Source: an uncultured Pelagibacteraceae bacterium (GTDB lineage: Bacteria > Pseudomonadota > Alphaproteobacteria > Pelagibacterales > Pelagibacteraceae). Taken from it: 38,751 nt of DNA. This document shows, piece after piece, positions 12,986-17,374 of this stretch (its first letter is position 1; every line of letters starts with the position of its first letter). The stretch lies in the NCBI GenBank assembly GCA_902510635.1, contig CABXCB010000005.1, forward strand, positions 1 to 38,751. Direction: 5' to 3'. A program made the position numbers and the translations under genes. Below the pieces are notes generated by a model, which ran no database searches, was not told the origin of the DNA, and was given only the letters and a program-made list of their open reading frames with translations.

Positions 12986-13972
12986 ATGCTTAAAGATAGT
13001 TTTGGTAGAACATTTCCGTATATTAGAATGTCAATTACAGACGTTTGTAATTTTAAATGCGGCTATTGTTTGCCAAATGGTTACCAAGTCGATAAAAGTG
13101 ATAATAGAAAATTTCTTCATCTTGATGAAATAAAACGTCTTGCAAAATGCTTCTCTGAATTAGGGGTTAATAAAATTAGAATTACAGGTGGTGAGCCAAC
13201 TGTAAGAAAAGATTTTTTTGAAATTATTAAAGTTTTAAAAGTAGATGCTGGAATAAAAAAAGTTGTAATTACAACAAATGGCTATCATTTAGATAAAAAA
13301 GCAAAGCTATTAGTTGATAGTGGTTTAAATGGAATTAATATAAGCATGGATAGTCTTAACCGTGAAACTTTTAAAAATGTTACTGGACATGATAGGTTGC
13401 CAGAAATTTTAGAAGGTATAAAAAATTTACAAGAATTAGGTTTTGAAAATATTAAAATTAATGCTGTTTTACTAAATGGAATTAATTCATCAGAAAAAGA
13501 TTTTGATGCATGGTCAAAATTTGTTCAAATTAATAAAATTGATTTTAGATATATAGAACTAATGCAAACAGGTGATAATTTAGAATATTTTAAAAAATAT
13601 CATTCTTCATCCAAGATATTTAAGAATTATTTAAATGAAAATAATTGGATATATCAAACTCTAGGAAAAGACGCCGGTCCATCCATAAATTATATAAACC
13701 CTGAATATAAAGGTAAATTTGGAATAATTGCTCCTTATTCAAAAGACTTTTGTAAAACTTGTAATCGTTTAAGAATTACATCTAGAGGAGATTTAAGACT
13801 TTGCTTGTTTGGAAATACTGGAATAAGTGTAAGACATTTATTACAAAAAGACGACCAACTTAATGAGTTAAAAGATCTTATATTAAAACAAATGCAGTTT
13901 AAAAAAGAATCTCATTATTTAGAGCTTGGAGATACAGGTTCAACTAAAAATTTATCTAAAACTGGGGGATAA
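12986..13972 (+). CDS. moaA: GTP 3',8-cyclase MoaA
   Basis: Radical SAM enzyme for the first step of molybdenum cofactor synthesis, turning GTP into 3',8-cyclo-dihydro-GTP. The N-terminal cluster motif is Cys21, Cys25, Cys28 (CNFKCGYC), followed by ITGGEPTVR. The second cluster is bound by Cys256, Cys259 and Cys273 (CKTCNRLR..CLF). The chain ends in the Gly-Gly tail (SKTGG) that MoaA needs for catalysis. Length 328 is normal. It opens a rightward moaA-moaC-moaD-moaE run whose genes are spaced by 0-2 bases or overlap. It serves the molybdenum hydroxylase encoded just to the right. Confidence 0.97.
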   Translation: MLKDSFGRTFPYIRMSITDVCNFKCGYCLPNGYQVDKSDNRKFLHLDEIKRLAKCFSELGVNKIRITGGEPTVRKDFFEIIKVLKVDAGIKKVVITTNGYHLDKKAKLLVDSGLNGINISMDSLNRETFKNVTGHDRLPEILEGIKNLQELGFENIKINAVLLNGINSSEKDFDAWSKFVQINKIDFRYIELMQTGDNLEYFKKYHSSSKIFKNYLNENNWIYQTLGKDAGPSINYINPEYKGKFGIIAPYSKDFCKTCNRLRITSRGDLRLCLFGNTGISVRHLLQKDDQLNELKDLILKQMQFKKESHYLELGDTGSTKNLSKTGG

Positions 13973-14518
13973 TTGACTAAATTAAAAATAGTAAATCAAG
14001 ATGAGTTAAAAGATTGGGCTAAAGAAATTTTTAAAAAAAATTCATTTAATATGGTTGATGTTTCTTCAAAAAAGGAAACATTTAGAAGAGCTCTTGCATC
14101 GGGAAAAATTTATGTTGGTAAAGAAGTTTTTAATATGATTAAAAACAAAGAAATGCCCAAAGGTGATCCTATAACTCTAGCAGAAGTTTCGGCCTTGTTG
14201 GGTGTGAAAAAAACAAGTGAATTAATTCCTTTGTGTCATCCTCTTCCAATAGATCACACCGCAACTAAAATTATTATGCACGAAGAAGATTCTTCTTTAG
14301 AAGTATTTTGTGTTGTTTCAACAGTTGCCAAAACAGGTGTTGAAATGGAAGCAATTATGGGGGTTAATGCAGCACTAATTACTATTTACGATCTGAGTAA
14401 AATTGTAAATCCACATCTTAAAATTGATAATATTAAATTATTAATTAAAGAAGGTGGGAAGAGTGGATTATGGACAAATCCAGATGGACTTCCTAAATTT
14501 TTAAAAAATATTTTTTAA
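13973..14518 (+). CDS. moaC: Cyclic pyranopterin monophosphate synthase MoaC
   Basis: Converts the MoaA product to cyclic pyranopterin monophosphate. Conserved parts are NMVDVSSKKETFRRA, LIPLCHPLPIDHT and VAKTGVEMEAIMGV, the last holding the catalytic lysine region. At 181 residues it is about 20 longer than usual, owing to a lysine-rich N-terminal stretch before NMVDVS. The start is TTG at 13973, immediately after the moaA stop, with GGGGG about five bases upstream. The ATG at the NMVDVS methionine would give a shorter, more standard protein and cannot be excluded. It is co-transcribed with moaA and moaD. Confidence 0.95.
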   Translation: MTKLKIVNQDELKDWAKEIFKKNSFNMVDVSSKKETFRRALASGKIYVGKEVFNMIKNKEMPKGDPITLAEVSALLGVKKTSELIPLCHPLPIDHTATKIIMHEEDSSLEVFCVVSTVAKTGVEMEAIMGVNAALITIYDLSKIVNPHLKIDNIKLLIKEGGKSGLWTNPDGLPKFLKNIF

Positions 14519-14520
14519 TT

Positions 14521-14790
14521 ATGAAAGTTAAACTTGAACTTTTTGGTGCGAGTAGAGATTTAAGCGATAAAAACTTTTTAGAATTTAGCATTGAAGAAAA
14601 GATTTCAATTAAAGATTTAAAGAAAAAAATAATTAATTATGTAGATGAAAATTTTAAAGGAAACGAAAATTATAAAAAAATAATTGAAACTTCAGCTTTT
14701 TGTTCAGAAGATGATAATATTATTTCTGAAAATTATAAAATTACAAAAGATCAAAAGATTGGAATTATTCCCCCTATTGGAGGCGGTTAA
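14521..14790 (+). CDS. moaD: Molybdopterin synthase small subunit MoaD
   Basis: Ubiquitin-like sulfur carrier of molybdopterin synthase. The 89 residue chain ends in the needed Gly-Gly (PPIGGG), which is adenylated and thiocarboxylated before sulfur is passed to the pterin. It starts two bases after the moaC stop and its stop overlaps the moaE start (TAATG), so subunits D and E are made together. The usual MoaD length is about 80. The activating enzyme MoeB is not in the window and must be supplied from elsewhere. Confidence 0.92.
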   Translation: MKVKLELFGASRDLSDKNFLEFSIEEKISIKDLKKKIINYVDENFKGNENYKKIIETSAFCSEDDNIISENYKITKDQKIGIIPPIGGG

Positions 14791-15236
14791 TGCTTCATAC
14801 AAAAATAATAGATATTAAAAAAGAAAAAATTAAAGTTAATAAAGCTGAAGAATTTATATCTTCATCTAAATTTGGCGCTTCATTAATTTTTAAAGGAACT
14901 GTTAGAGAAAATAATGATAATAAAAAAGTAACAGGAATTACTTATGATAGTCATGATACAATGGTGATTAAAAGTTTTGAGGAAATTTATAATGAAGTTG
15001 ACCAAAAATTAAAAATTAAAGACAAAGCAGTTTATATAGAACATGTGAAAGGATATTTGGAATTAGGAGAAATAAGTATAATTATTGCAGTTGCTTGTCC
15101 TCATAGAGCGGAGACATATATTCTTTCTAGGTACATAATTGAAGAAATTAAGAAAAGATCTCCTATTTGGAAAAAAGAACATTATGAAAATAAGGAAAGT
15201 GAATGGTTAAAAGGAAATCCTATCCAAACTAATTAA
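14790..15236 (+). CDS. moaE: Molybdopterin synthase catalytic subunit MoaE
   Basis: Large subunit of molybdopterin synthase, 148 residues. It inserts two sulfurs into cyclic pyranopterin monophosphate using MoaD thiocarboxylate. Family marks are GASLIFKGTVRENN near the start, YIEHVKGYLELGEISIIIAVACPHR, and the lysine-rich active end RSPIWKKEHYENKESEW. The ATG overlaps the moaD stop by one base. Its 3' end overlaps the convergent mocA gene by eight bases, so the two opposite transcripts run into each other with no terminator between them. Confidence 0.96.
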   Translation: MLHTKIIDIKKEKIKVNKAEEFISSSKFGASLIFKGTVRENNDNKKVTGITYDSHDTMVIKSFEEIYNEVDQKLKIKDKAVYIEHVKGYLELGEISIIIAVACPHRAETYILSRYIIEEIKKRSPIWKKEHYENKESEWLKGNPIQTN

Positions 15237-15801
15237 AATCTTTTCTCACATCCAAATCTTTAAAAACTCTTTTACTTAAAACTTTTATAAAATTAGTATT
15301 ATTTTTTAATCTTTTAACCATAAACTTGGCCCCAACATCACCTTTCATTCTTTTAAATTTAGTTAATATTGAGTTGTCAAAACCTATAGGATTACCAATT
15401 TTATTCTTAAATTTTAATACGTGAACTAAATGTCTTTTTTTTAATATTGAATTATATATTTTATTAATATCTGAAGACTTTATAAATGGCATATCAGACT
15501 GAACAATTATAAATCCTTTATCTTTTTTTGAAATTTTTTTTAACCCAGTATTAATTGAAGATGACATTCCTAATCTAAATTTTTTGTTTAATACAAAAAT
15601 ATTTTTTTTATTATTCTTAATCACTTTTCTTACTTCTTTATTCTGATATCCAAGAACAATGATAATTTTATCTACTTTGCTCTTAATTAATGCTTGTAGC
15701 GAATGATTAATTAAAGCTTTATTTTTAAACTTTTTGATCAATTTATTTTCGTTTTTAAGCCTTTTGGATTGTCCTGCAGCTAACAGAATAACTTTAATCA
15801 T
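15229..15801 (-). CDS. mocA: Molybdenum cofactor cytidylyltransferase (MocA type)
   Basis: Nucleotidyltransferase of the MobA/MocA fold, 190 residues. The nucleotide loop is LLAAGQSKRLKNENKL, with LAAGxS as in MocA rather than the LAGG of MobA. GMSSSINTGL and VQSDMPFIKSSDI match MocA too. MocA makes molybdopterin cytosine dinucleotide, the cofactor form used by CO-dehydrogenase and related hydroxylases, which agrees with its place at the end of the cox-like operon. Start ATG at 15801 lies three bases after yjbQ. Residues usual for cytidine selection cannot be proved by eye, so MobA remains a weaker alternative. It is one of the most A+T-rich, lysine-rich genes here. Confidence 0.87.
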   Translation of the reverse strand: MIKVILLAAGQSKRLKNENKLIKKFKNKALINHSLQALIKSKVDKIIIVLGYQNKEVRKVIKNNKKNIFVLNKKFRLGMSSSINTGLKKISKKDKGFIIVQSDMPFIKSSDINKIYNSILKKRHLVHVLKFKNKIGNPIGFDNSILTKFKRMKGDVGAKFMVKRLKNNTNFIKVLSKRVFKDLDVRKDFN

Positions 15802-16224: not shown

Positions 16225-16905
16225 TTATTTTTTATAAGTTTCTGATACTAATTGAGCAATAATAGATAGTGCTATCTCTGGGGCTGATCTTCCACCTAAT
16301 TTAATACCAATAGGACCGTGTATTGAATTAATTTGGTCATTATTAAATCCTGCATCTTTTAATCTTTGACATCTGTTTTCATGAGTTTTCTTACTACCTA
16401 ACGCACCTACATAATAAAATTTTTTATTAAGAGCATGTTGTAATGCTGGATCGTCTATTTTGGGATCGTGAGTTAATGCAATTAGTGCAGAATTTTCATT
16501 TGTTTCTATTTCTTTAAAAGCTTCATCTGGCCATTTATTGATAATTTTCATATCAGGAAATCTTTGTTCCGATGCAAAATAGCCACGCGGATCTATAATA
16601 GAAATTTCAAAGTTCAAACTTTTTGCAAAATCTACCAGATATTGAGCTATATGAACTGCACCTACAATAATAACTTTTATAGGTCTAATATATGTTTCAA
16701 TAAAAATTTCAGTATTTTCTATTACTCCATTTTTTTTTAATTTAAAAAAATTATCAATTTGCTCTTTATAAATTTCAAATTCTTTGGTTAATGATTTTCC
16801 AGGTTCATATATTTCACTCAAACCATTTTTAAGATTAGTTACAATTGCAAATTCTATCTTTGAAGCCTTTTTTTTGATTATTTCCTTAAGTTGAGAGTGT
16901 TTCAT
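16225..16905 (-). CDS. XdhC/CoxF-like maturation factor, Rossmann domain part
   Basis: C-terminal half of an XdhC-type maturation factor as a separate protein, 226 residues. XdhC binds the molybdenum cofactor, aids its sulfuration and inserts it into xanthine-dehydrogenase-type enzymes. An N-terminal part (about 1-75) precedes a Rossmann fold with VIVGAVHIAQYLVDFA, ISIIDPRGYFASEQRFP, ALTHDPKIDDPAL, VGALGSKKTHENR and GIKLGGRSAPEIALSI, the classic XdhC C-terminal signature. The N-terminal domain is encoded upstream at 17045-17374. A 44 residue membrane ORF lies between. Its ATG follows the stop of that ORF with no gap. The role in cofactor insertion is inferred from family and operon. Confidence 0.9.
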   Translation of the reverse strand: MKHSQLKEIIKKKASKIEFAIVTNLKNGLSEIYEPGKSLTKEFEIYKEQIDNFFKLKKNGVIENTEIFIETYIRPIKVIIVGAVHIAQYLVDFAKSLNFEISIIDPRGYFASEQRFPDMKIINKWPDEAFKEIETNENSALIALTHDPKIDDPALQHALNKKFYYVGALGSKKTHENRCQRLKDAGFNNDQINSIHGPIGIKLGGRSAPEIALSIIAQLVSETYKK

Positions 16906-17040
16906 TTAAACAATAAAAAAATGGTAGATTAAAAGTCCAATGATTAGGCCTTTAATAAACGTTATCCAAAGCACTGCATAATCAGAAAGATTAAGATTTT
17001 TTTTCCACCAGTCTATATATTTTTTATGCATCTCAATCAT
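16906..17040 (-). CDS. 44-residue single-pass membrane protein, unknown
   Basis: A short ORF absent from the track. Starting ATG ATT GAG at 17040, it reads 44 codons and a TAA at 16906-16908, and the next codon is the ATG of the coxF-like gene. It begins four bases after the stop of the XdhC N-terminal gene. The N-terminal half is charged (HKKYIDWWKKN), the C-terminal half is one strong membrane helix (about residues 22-44). Spacing is exactly that of its neighbours and it fills the gap completely, so I take it as real. No family was recognised. It may anchor the XdhC parts or the enzyme to the membrane, as CoxG may also do, but that is inference. No strong Shine-Dalgarno is visible. Confidence 0.6.
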   Translation of the reverse strand: MIEMHKKYIDWWKKNLNLSDYAVLWITFIKGLIIGLLIYHFFIV

Positions 17041-17044
17041 AAAT

Positions 17045-17374
17045 TTAATTTATTTGTTCTAAATAAACTGCTATTTCACCACCACATGCAAGTCCAACTT
17101 CCCAAGCACTTTCGTTAGAAACTTTAAATTCAATTTTTTTACATGGTTTATTATCTTTAATTAAACCAATGCATTCTCTTACAACCGCAGATTCAACACA
17201 TCCACCTGAAACAGAACCTGAAAAATCTCCTTTTTCGTTAACAATCATTCTGCTTCCGACCTGTCTCGGAGATGATCCCCATGTTTGAATTACAGTTGCT
17301 AGAACAACTTTTTGATTAGTTTTTATCCAATCATTTGCTTCTTCAAGAATTTTTTCATCAAATGAATTTTTCAT
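17045..17374 (-). CDS. XdhC/CoxI N-terminal domain protein
   Basis: Stand-alone XdhC_CoxI domain of 109 residues. The signature runs VLATVIQTWGSSPRQVGSRMIV followed by GSVSGGCVESAVV and, near the end, LACGGEIAVYLE; the Cys in GGCVE and that in ACGGE are the expected conserved cysteines. In many bacteria this domain is fused to the Rossmann domain found here as a separate gene; the two-piece form is common in CO-dehydrogenase-type operons. It follows coxM with a 21 base gap and precedes the 44 residue ORF. It is thought to help load sulfurated molybdenum cofactor into CoxL. Confidence 0.92.
   Translation of the reverse strand: MKNSFDEKILEEANDWIKTNQKVVLATVIQTWGSSPRQVGSRMIVNEKGDFSGSVSGGCVESAVVRECIGLIKDNKPCKKIEFKVSNESAWEVGLACGGEIAVYLEQIN

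Follow-up and report, generated by a model that had tools for sequence, protein, structure and literature searches.

A 44-residue membrane microprotein of SAR11 bacteria related by sequence to a module of marine T4-like phages

The 44-codon open reading frame (ORF) found between the two XdhC genes of a SAR11-type genome bin is, judging from the conservation of its sequence, a genuine gene of marine SAR11 bacteria that encodes a membrane protein. Our overall reading, to which we give a probability of about 0.6, is that it encodes an accessory inner-membrane microprotein module shared with marine T4-like phages. The window, meaning the whole 38,751-nucleotide stretch of DNA analysed here, belongs to a bin of 912 kb that is 68% complete. 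The protein encoded on the minus strand at 16906-17040 reads MIEMHKKYIDWWKKNLNLSDYAVLWITFIKGLIIGLLIYHFFIV. The ORF, its parts and the flanking genes are as follows.

16906..17040, minus strand: gene of the 44-aa membrane microprotein, ATG at 17040 and TAA at 16908-16906; homologues, purifying selection.
16996..17037, minus strand: codons 2-15, charged amphipathic helix (H2-15), predicted to lie on the cytoplasmic face; AlphaFold pLDDT about 90, side deduced from lipoprotein relatives.
16912..16983, minus strand: codons 20-43, predicted membrane helix (AlphaFold H20-43) with W25, F28, K30-G31, G35 and Y39-H40.
17041..17044, minus strand: 4-base spacer ATTT from the XdhC_N stop to the 44-aa ORF; read from the sequence.
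17045..17374, minus strand: flanking gene, XdhC N-terminal domain protein of 109 aa (PF02625, E 5.6e-24).
16225..16905, minus strand: flanking gene, XdhC C-terminal Rossmann domain protein of 226 aa (PF13478, E 6.8e-39).

Along the minus strand, the TAA of the XdhC_N-like gene is followed by ATTT, the 44-aa ORF and, with zero gap, the ATG of the XdhC_C-like gene at 16905. The coordinates bear out the original prediction that the ORF fills the gap exactly, four bases after one stop and none before the next ATG. It had further been argued that random sequence would not fit so neatly. When 139-base sequences with matching dinucleotide composition were simulated, just 0.6% contained an ATG ORF spanning 44 codons or more on this strand; taken alone, however, the exact fit is weak-to-modest evidence for a gene, and it is conservation that decides. 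TTTA is present at both edges of the ORF (17043-17040 and 16910-16907). A molybdenum cofactor neighbourhood adjoins the XdhC operon in the window: at 12986-15801, moaA, moaC and moaE-like genes on the plus strand, named by eye, stand head-on to a MobA/MocA-like gene (190 aa) on the minus strand.

A first search of 60 relatives gave six same-genus genomes with full-length, stop-free homologues of 52-74% identity. The profile built from these six homologues was run on 250 same-genus genomes and found an intact full-length copy in 55 of them, one apiece and never two; weak matches inside large frames of other genomes, with E above 0.005, were taken as noise. Breakage by stops or frameshifts in close relatives had been named as the result that would tell against the ORF, and no broken copy was seen among the 250 genomes. 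Intact copies are also present in two single-contig, 99%-complete genomes (G280 and G281). Since many of the relatives are single-cell or metagenome bins, absence from one genome is weak evidence; absence of the ORF at intact junctions is strong evidence.

Selection was evaluated over 74 distinct DNA sequences of equal length. Pairs were grouped by DNA identity from 60 to 100%, and all classes gave a pN/pS ratio within 0.16-0.37. Because synonymous sites approach saturation among the more distant pairs, it is the close classes that carry the weight of this result; pairs at 85-90% identity have a pS of 0.42 and a pN of 0.066. Residues F28, K30, G31, G35, Y39 and H40 are invariant among 46 distinct host proteins. 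The homologues in 55 of the 250 genomes and the pN/pS values uphold the description of the ORF as a real, conserved, unlisted single-span membrane protein. A chance open frame, such as an AT-rich gap yields in the above 0.6% of simulations, is contradicted by the homologues and by selection, and was rejected as vanishingly improbable.

Outside the genus, a related stretch was found in other SAR11 families, free-standing in one genome (G330) and as the N-terminus of a 345-aa alpha/beta hydrolase in three others (G041, G293 and G295). The start of this module-hydrolase fusion overlaps the end of a 646-aa acetyl-CoA synthetase-like gene, named by eye, at L010, L296 and L298. The module is also part of a 274-aa lipoprotein encoded on a 4.2-kb contig in a SAR11 bin (L130, G081:C63), a contig possibly of phage origin. 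For homologues outside SAR11, 289 alphaproteobacterial genomes gave nothing above noise, and in a phylum sample of 299 genomes only the window matched. With one genome scanned for each GTDB species, 201 relatives were confirmed; among the 80 listed, all but one are labelled Pelagibacter relatives, the sole exception being a MAG labelled Parcubacteria that is probably mis-binned. The 44-aa protein had no match in Pfam, NCBIfam, PADLOC or PDB (the last by sequence and by fold), with 0 PADLOC anti-phage defence families at E 10 and noise only in PHROGs (best E 0.13). The earlier remark that it matches no known family thus holds for the curated families.

Sorted by site, 54 homologues lie at the XdhC junction (site A, 11 copies), between a uracil-DNA glycosylase gene (PF03167, 233-265 codons) and rnhB (site B, 33 copies) or behind a hisE-like gene (site C, 10 copies), and two further genomes hold a homologue at other locations (L301 and L306). 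Among 30 same-genus XdhC loci, only the window, L019 and L033 are occupied; in the other 27, which lack the ORF, the stop codon of XdhC_N touches or overlaps the start codon of XdhC_C (TAATGA and similar), except for 5 bases in between in L023. A PhyH gene comes after the ORF of the 44-aa type at L033, and at another occupied XdhC site an M23-peptidase gene has been pushed in after the homologue. At site C the gene directly follows hisE, with a 5-base gap, in 8 of 10 cases. The genes downstream vary by genome (C5 methyltransferase, trypsin-like protease, glycosyltransferase), and the only clear defence-type neighbour is a type II methyltransferase in L099. Site B is empty, with stop and start overlapping or abutting, in most genomes that lack the gene there, including that of the window (L289). 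Eight genomes (L277-L282, L284 and L286) share a fixed 19-base spacer, ATTTTTAATAATATTTTAT, before rnhB, which the others do not have. This spacer is possibly the scar of a lost copy; five of the eight genomes have the gene at site C.

The position of the ORF had led to the suggestion that it tethers cofactor insertion by XdhC to the membrane, alongside the CoxG-anchored enzyme. A tether or accessory subunit of this kind would account for a gene placed between two XdhC genes at coupling-range spacing, and for the same position in 11 of the 54 homologues. However, the site is empty in 27 of 30 XdhC loci, 43 of the 54 homologues are elsewhere, so that linkage with the XdhC/CoxI-CoxF accessory set is not constant, and phages carry homologues. 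No XdhC gene was found beside the phage homologues in the neighbourhoods examined, and no constant neighbour gene pointing to one pathway was found in the phage or host loci examined. The distribution of homologues led us to reject the tether, which we regard as very improbable. The ORF does not depend on XdhC, whose junction is just one among several places where the ORF has landed, and its co-transcription with XdhC is probably by position only.

Several landing sites, an exact fit between abutting genes and TTTA at both ends might instead point to a selfish mini-cassette hopping between operon junctions with no benefit to the host. A junction in keeping with this is that of L023 (G025:C3), which reads TAA-ATTTA-ATG, 5 bases with no ORF; this would be expected if the ORF had been deleted between two TTTA copies, or if the site were in a pre-insertion, unoccupied state with a 4-base duplication. 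But the protein is under selection and no genome holds more than one copy. On the gene tree of the 54 copies the site label changes only three times, the minimum possible being two, and the site C copies form one clade (support 100/99). As regards the marks of a mobile element (conserved ends, multiple copies, a linked recombinase), there is one copy per genome and TTTA microhomology only. Relocation is rare and the gene is missing from most genomes; we therefore conclude that it is not an active element, and selfish hopping is an improbable explanation.

A first viral scan gave six loci. Among the viral loci, L132 and L135 hold standalone ORFs like that of the host, and in L133 and L134 the module is placed ahead of a lipobox. 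A tblastn search of isolated phages with the standalone viral protein L135 gave no match; the link to cyanophages was made via P-SSM4 and profile comparison. P-SSM4 has a standalone, largely unannotated 51-aa ORF between gp3 and the next annotated gene, and with this ORF as query matches were obtained in P-SSM2, P-SSM5, P-SSM7, P-RSM3, metaG-MbCM1 and marine single virus genomes. Three of these proteins are annotated as T4-GC 221 (PSSM2_226 in P-SSM2, PSSM7_102 in P-SSM7 and MbCM1_114), the P-SSM7 homologue being tucked in between gp15 and gp16. Neither P-SSM4 (L218, AY940168.2, about 121399-121554) nor P-RSM3 (HQ634176.1) has this T4-GC 221-type ORF annotated between gp3 and the annotated gene that follows, which in P-SSM4 overlaps the final bases of the ORF. 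A scan with the P-SSM4/T4-GC 221 subfamily confirmed at least 477 viral contigs. Of the 103 viral loci analysed, about 19 have the module fused to a lipoprotein, and in most it stands alone.

The host profile aligned with T4-GC 221 over 38 columns (hhalign E 6e-16, probability 98.6%), and on this comparison the window protein is homologous, along its whole length, to the T4-GC 221 phage cluster. The phage proteins (45-58 aa) and the stand-alone 44-aa window protein with helices 2-15 and 20-43 are alike in having one membrane helix and the pattern W..K...S.Y......F.KG, and in being products of accessory genes placed differently in different genomes. Unlike the host gene, T4-GC 221 is a phage gene, and its C-terminus stops right after the helix (GAILL) without the host YHF ending. 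The term T4-GC 221 is absent from the main text of a comparison of T4-like cyanophages (PMC3037559), and we found no literature on SAR11 small membrane proteins and phage.

Comparison of the host profile with the lipoprotein modules gave E 6.4e-23 (profile-profile), and identity to the window protein reaches 57% (L133). Among the fusions, the best understood belongs to a set in which an M15 endolysin (phrog_894) is followed by an i-spanin (phrog_739) and, overlapping it, the o-spanin-like fusion protein (phrog_812, Rz-like spanin). These o-spanin-like lipoproteins of marine T4-like phages (L133, L225, L231 and L240-L243) share the N-terminal module with the window protein but continue into a lipobox cysteine and a periplasmic domain, whereas the window protein stops there; lacking both, it was rejected as an o-spanin or lipoprotein. 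In the T4-like pelagiphage HTVC008M, a related C-terminal part of an o-spanin is preceded by an ordinary short signal peptide instead, and the module is therefore an exchangeable N-terminal piece. The o-spanin-like region of HTVC008M (L223, KC465899.1, about 117300-117790) lies in two frames, one with the lipobox start and the other with the conserved C-terminal part, which reflects either a sequencing error or a frameshift; the region carries no spanin annotation. The pelagimyophage paper (PMC7029224) makes no mention of spanin, holin or lysis. Phage lipoproteins of 461-463 aa (L233, L234 and L236) also have the module in front, and L233, the one tested, had no Pfam or PHROG match.

The fused phage forms resemble the extended signal peptide regions (ESPRs) known from autotransporters and two-partner secretion proteins (PMC2805444), which are likewise conserved charged extensions ahead of the signal peptide on varied cargo proteins, although their sequence and cargo are different. 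The free protein appears partly signal-anchor-like; with no signal peptide and secreted passenger, and no cargo, it was rejected as a member of the ESPRs. We know of no ESPR that exists as a free-standing gene.

AlphaFold predicted, with a mean pLDDT of 92.6 over 46 sequences, helices at residues 2-15 and 20-43, the latter a 24-residue membrane helix that contains the invariant K30-G31-x3-G35. A charged N-terminal half and a membrane helix were therefore correctly foreseen. The amphipathicity of helix 2-15 is by itself weak (hydrophobic moment 0.45, shuffle p 0.09). The window protein, which has no cysteine, terminates 13 residues past the KG pair. The cyanophage proteins finish 8 residues past it, and the membrane helix must therefore include the preceding S.Y...W, with the conserved lysine inside it. 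In this model the buried lysine and the GxxxG-like spacing suggest pairing with itself or with a partner helix. Because in the phage lipoproteins the stretch after the module must reach the periplasm, the N-terminus of the free 44-aa protein is, by analogy, probably inside.

We propose that the ORF encodes a stand-alone version of an inner-membrane module, roughly 44 residues long, that is common to SAR11 and marine T4-like phages. Its charged helix would lie along the cytoplasmic face, and the 24-residue helix with its central lysine and GxxxG-like spacing would span the membrane, N-terminus in. In SAR11 the gene is accessory, single copy where present, and has come to lie in a small number of tight operons, in the window between the XdhC halves; the module would be exchanged with phages and rarely relocated (three site changes on the tree). 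The patchy distribution, phage sharing, lack of a constant partner and strong conservation fit autonomous action at the inner membrane. Such action might take place during phage infection, for example as superinfection exclusion, the protein having served phages first and been kept later by the host; this part is tentative, and a phage role unrelated to superinfection could apply as well. T4 Imm is a small phage membrane immunity protein. Immunity proteins of its kind are similarly small, membrane-bound, patchy and without a constant operon partner, but T4 Imm is larger, has two membrane spans and is likened here by description, not by sequence. The tree built from host and phage modules has little resolution: a branch separates off the host proteins in 64% of bootstraps, and its 46 columns are too few to give the direction of host-phage transfer.

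The role in phage infection is our leading guess, and an ordinary cellular role ranks close behind it or equal to it. The protein may be a host membrane microprotein engaged in assembly or regulation of an inner-membrane complex, or in envelope stress, that phages carry as an auxiliary host-type gene. Its single copy, purifying selection, intact state in the 99%-complete genomes G280 and G281 and retention through relocations make this a plausible reading, though one at less than even odds: the gene is missing from most same-genus relatives, near-complete ones included, it has no constant operon partner, and sequence and architecture are far more varied in phages than in hosts. The small single span with a lysine inside the helix and GxxxG-like spacing, together with the presence of the module in a phage lysis cassette (endolysin, i-spanin, o-spanin), could suggest a membrane-active lysis-type peptide, holin/antiholin-like or toxin-like, that is domesticated or silent in the host. 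Yet the cassette module is a lipoprotein N-terminus and not a separate holin, the standalone phage copies adjoin structural or metabolic genes and not endolysins, and a toxic peptide would hardly be expected in constant operons of streamlined genomes; we consider this unlikely. Also unlikely is that the free SAR11 copy acts as a decoy for the partner or membrane site of the lysis-lipoprotein module, so that spanin maturation and lysis are delayed or a second infection is blocked.

The accessory microprotein module described here defines a small-protein family missed by curated libraries and shared by marine T4-like phages and the ocean's most abundant bacteria. The same membrane module is used in two ways, on its own as a free protein and at the N-terminus of several unrelated lipoproteins, o-spanins among them. 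The case also cautions against inferring function from operon position in streamlined genomes. To our knowledge, few defence systems have been described for SAR11; should the free protein turn out to alter infection, it would represent a new phage-host factor at the level of the membrane in these bacteria.
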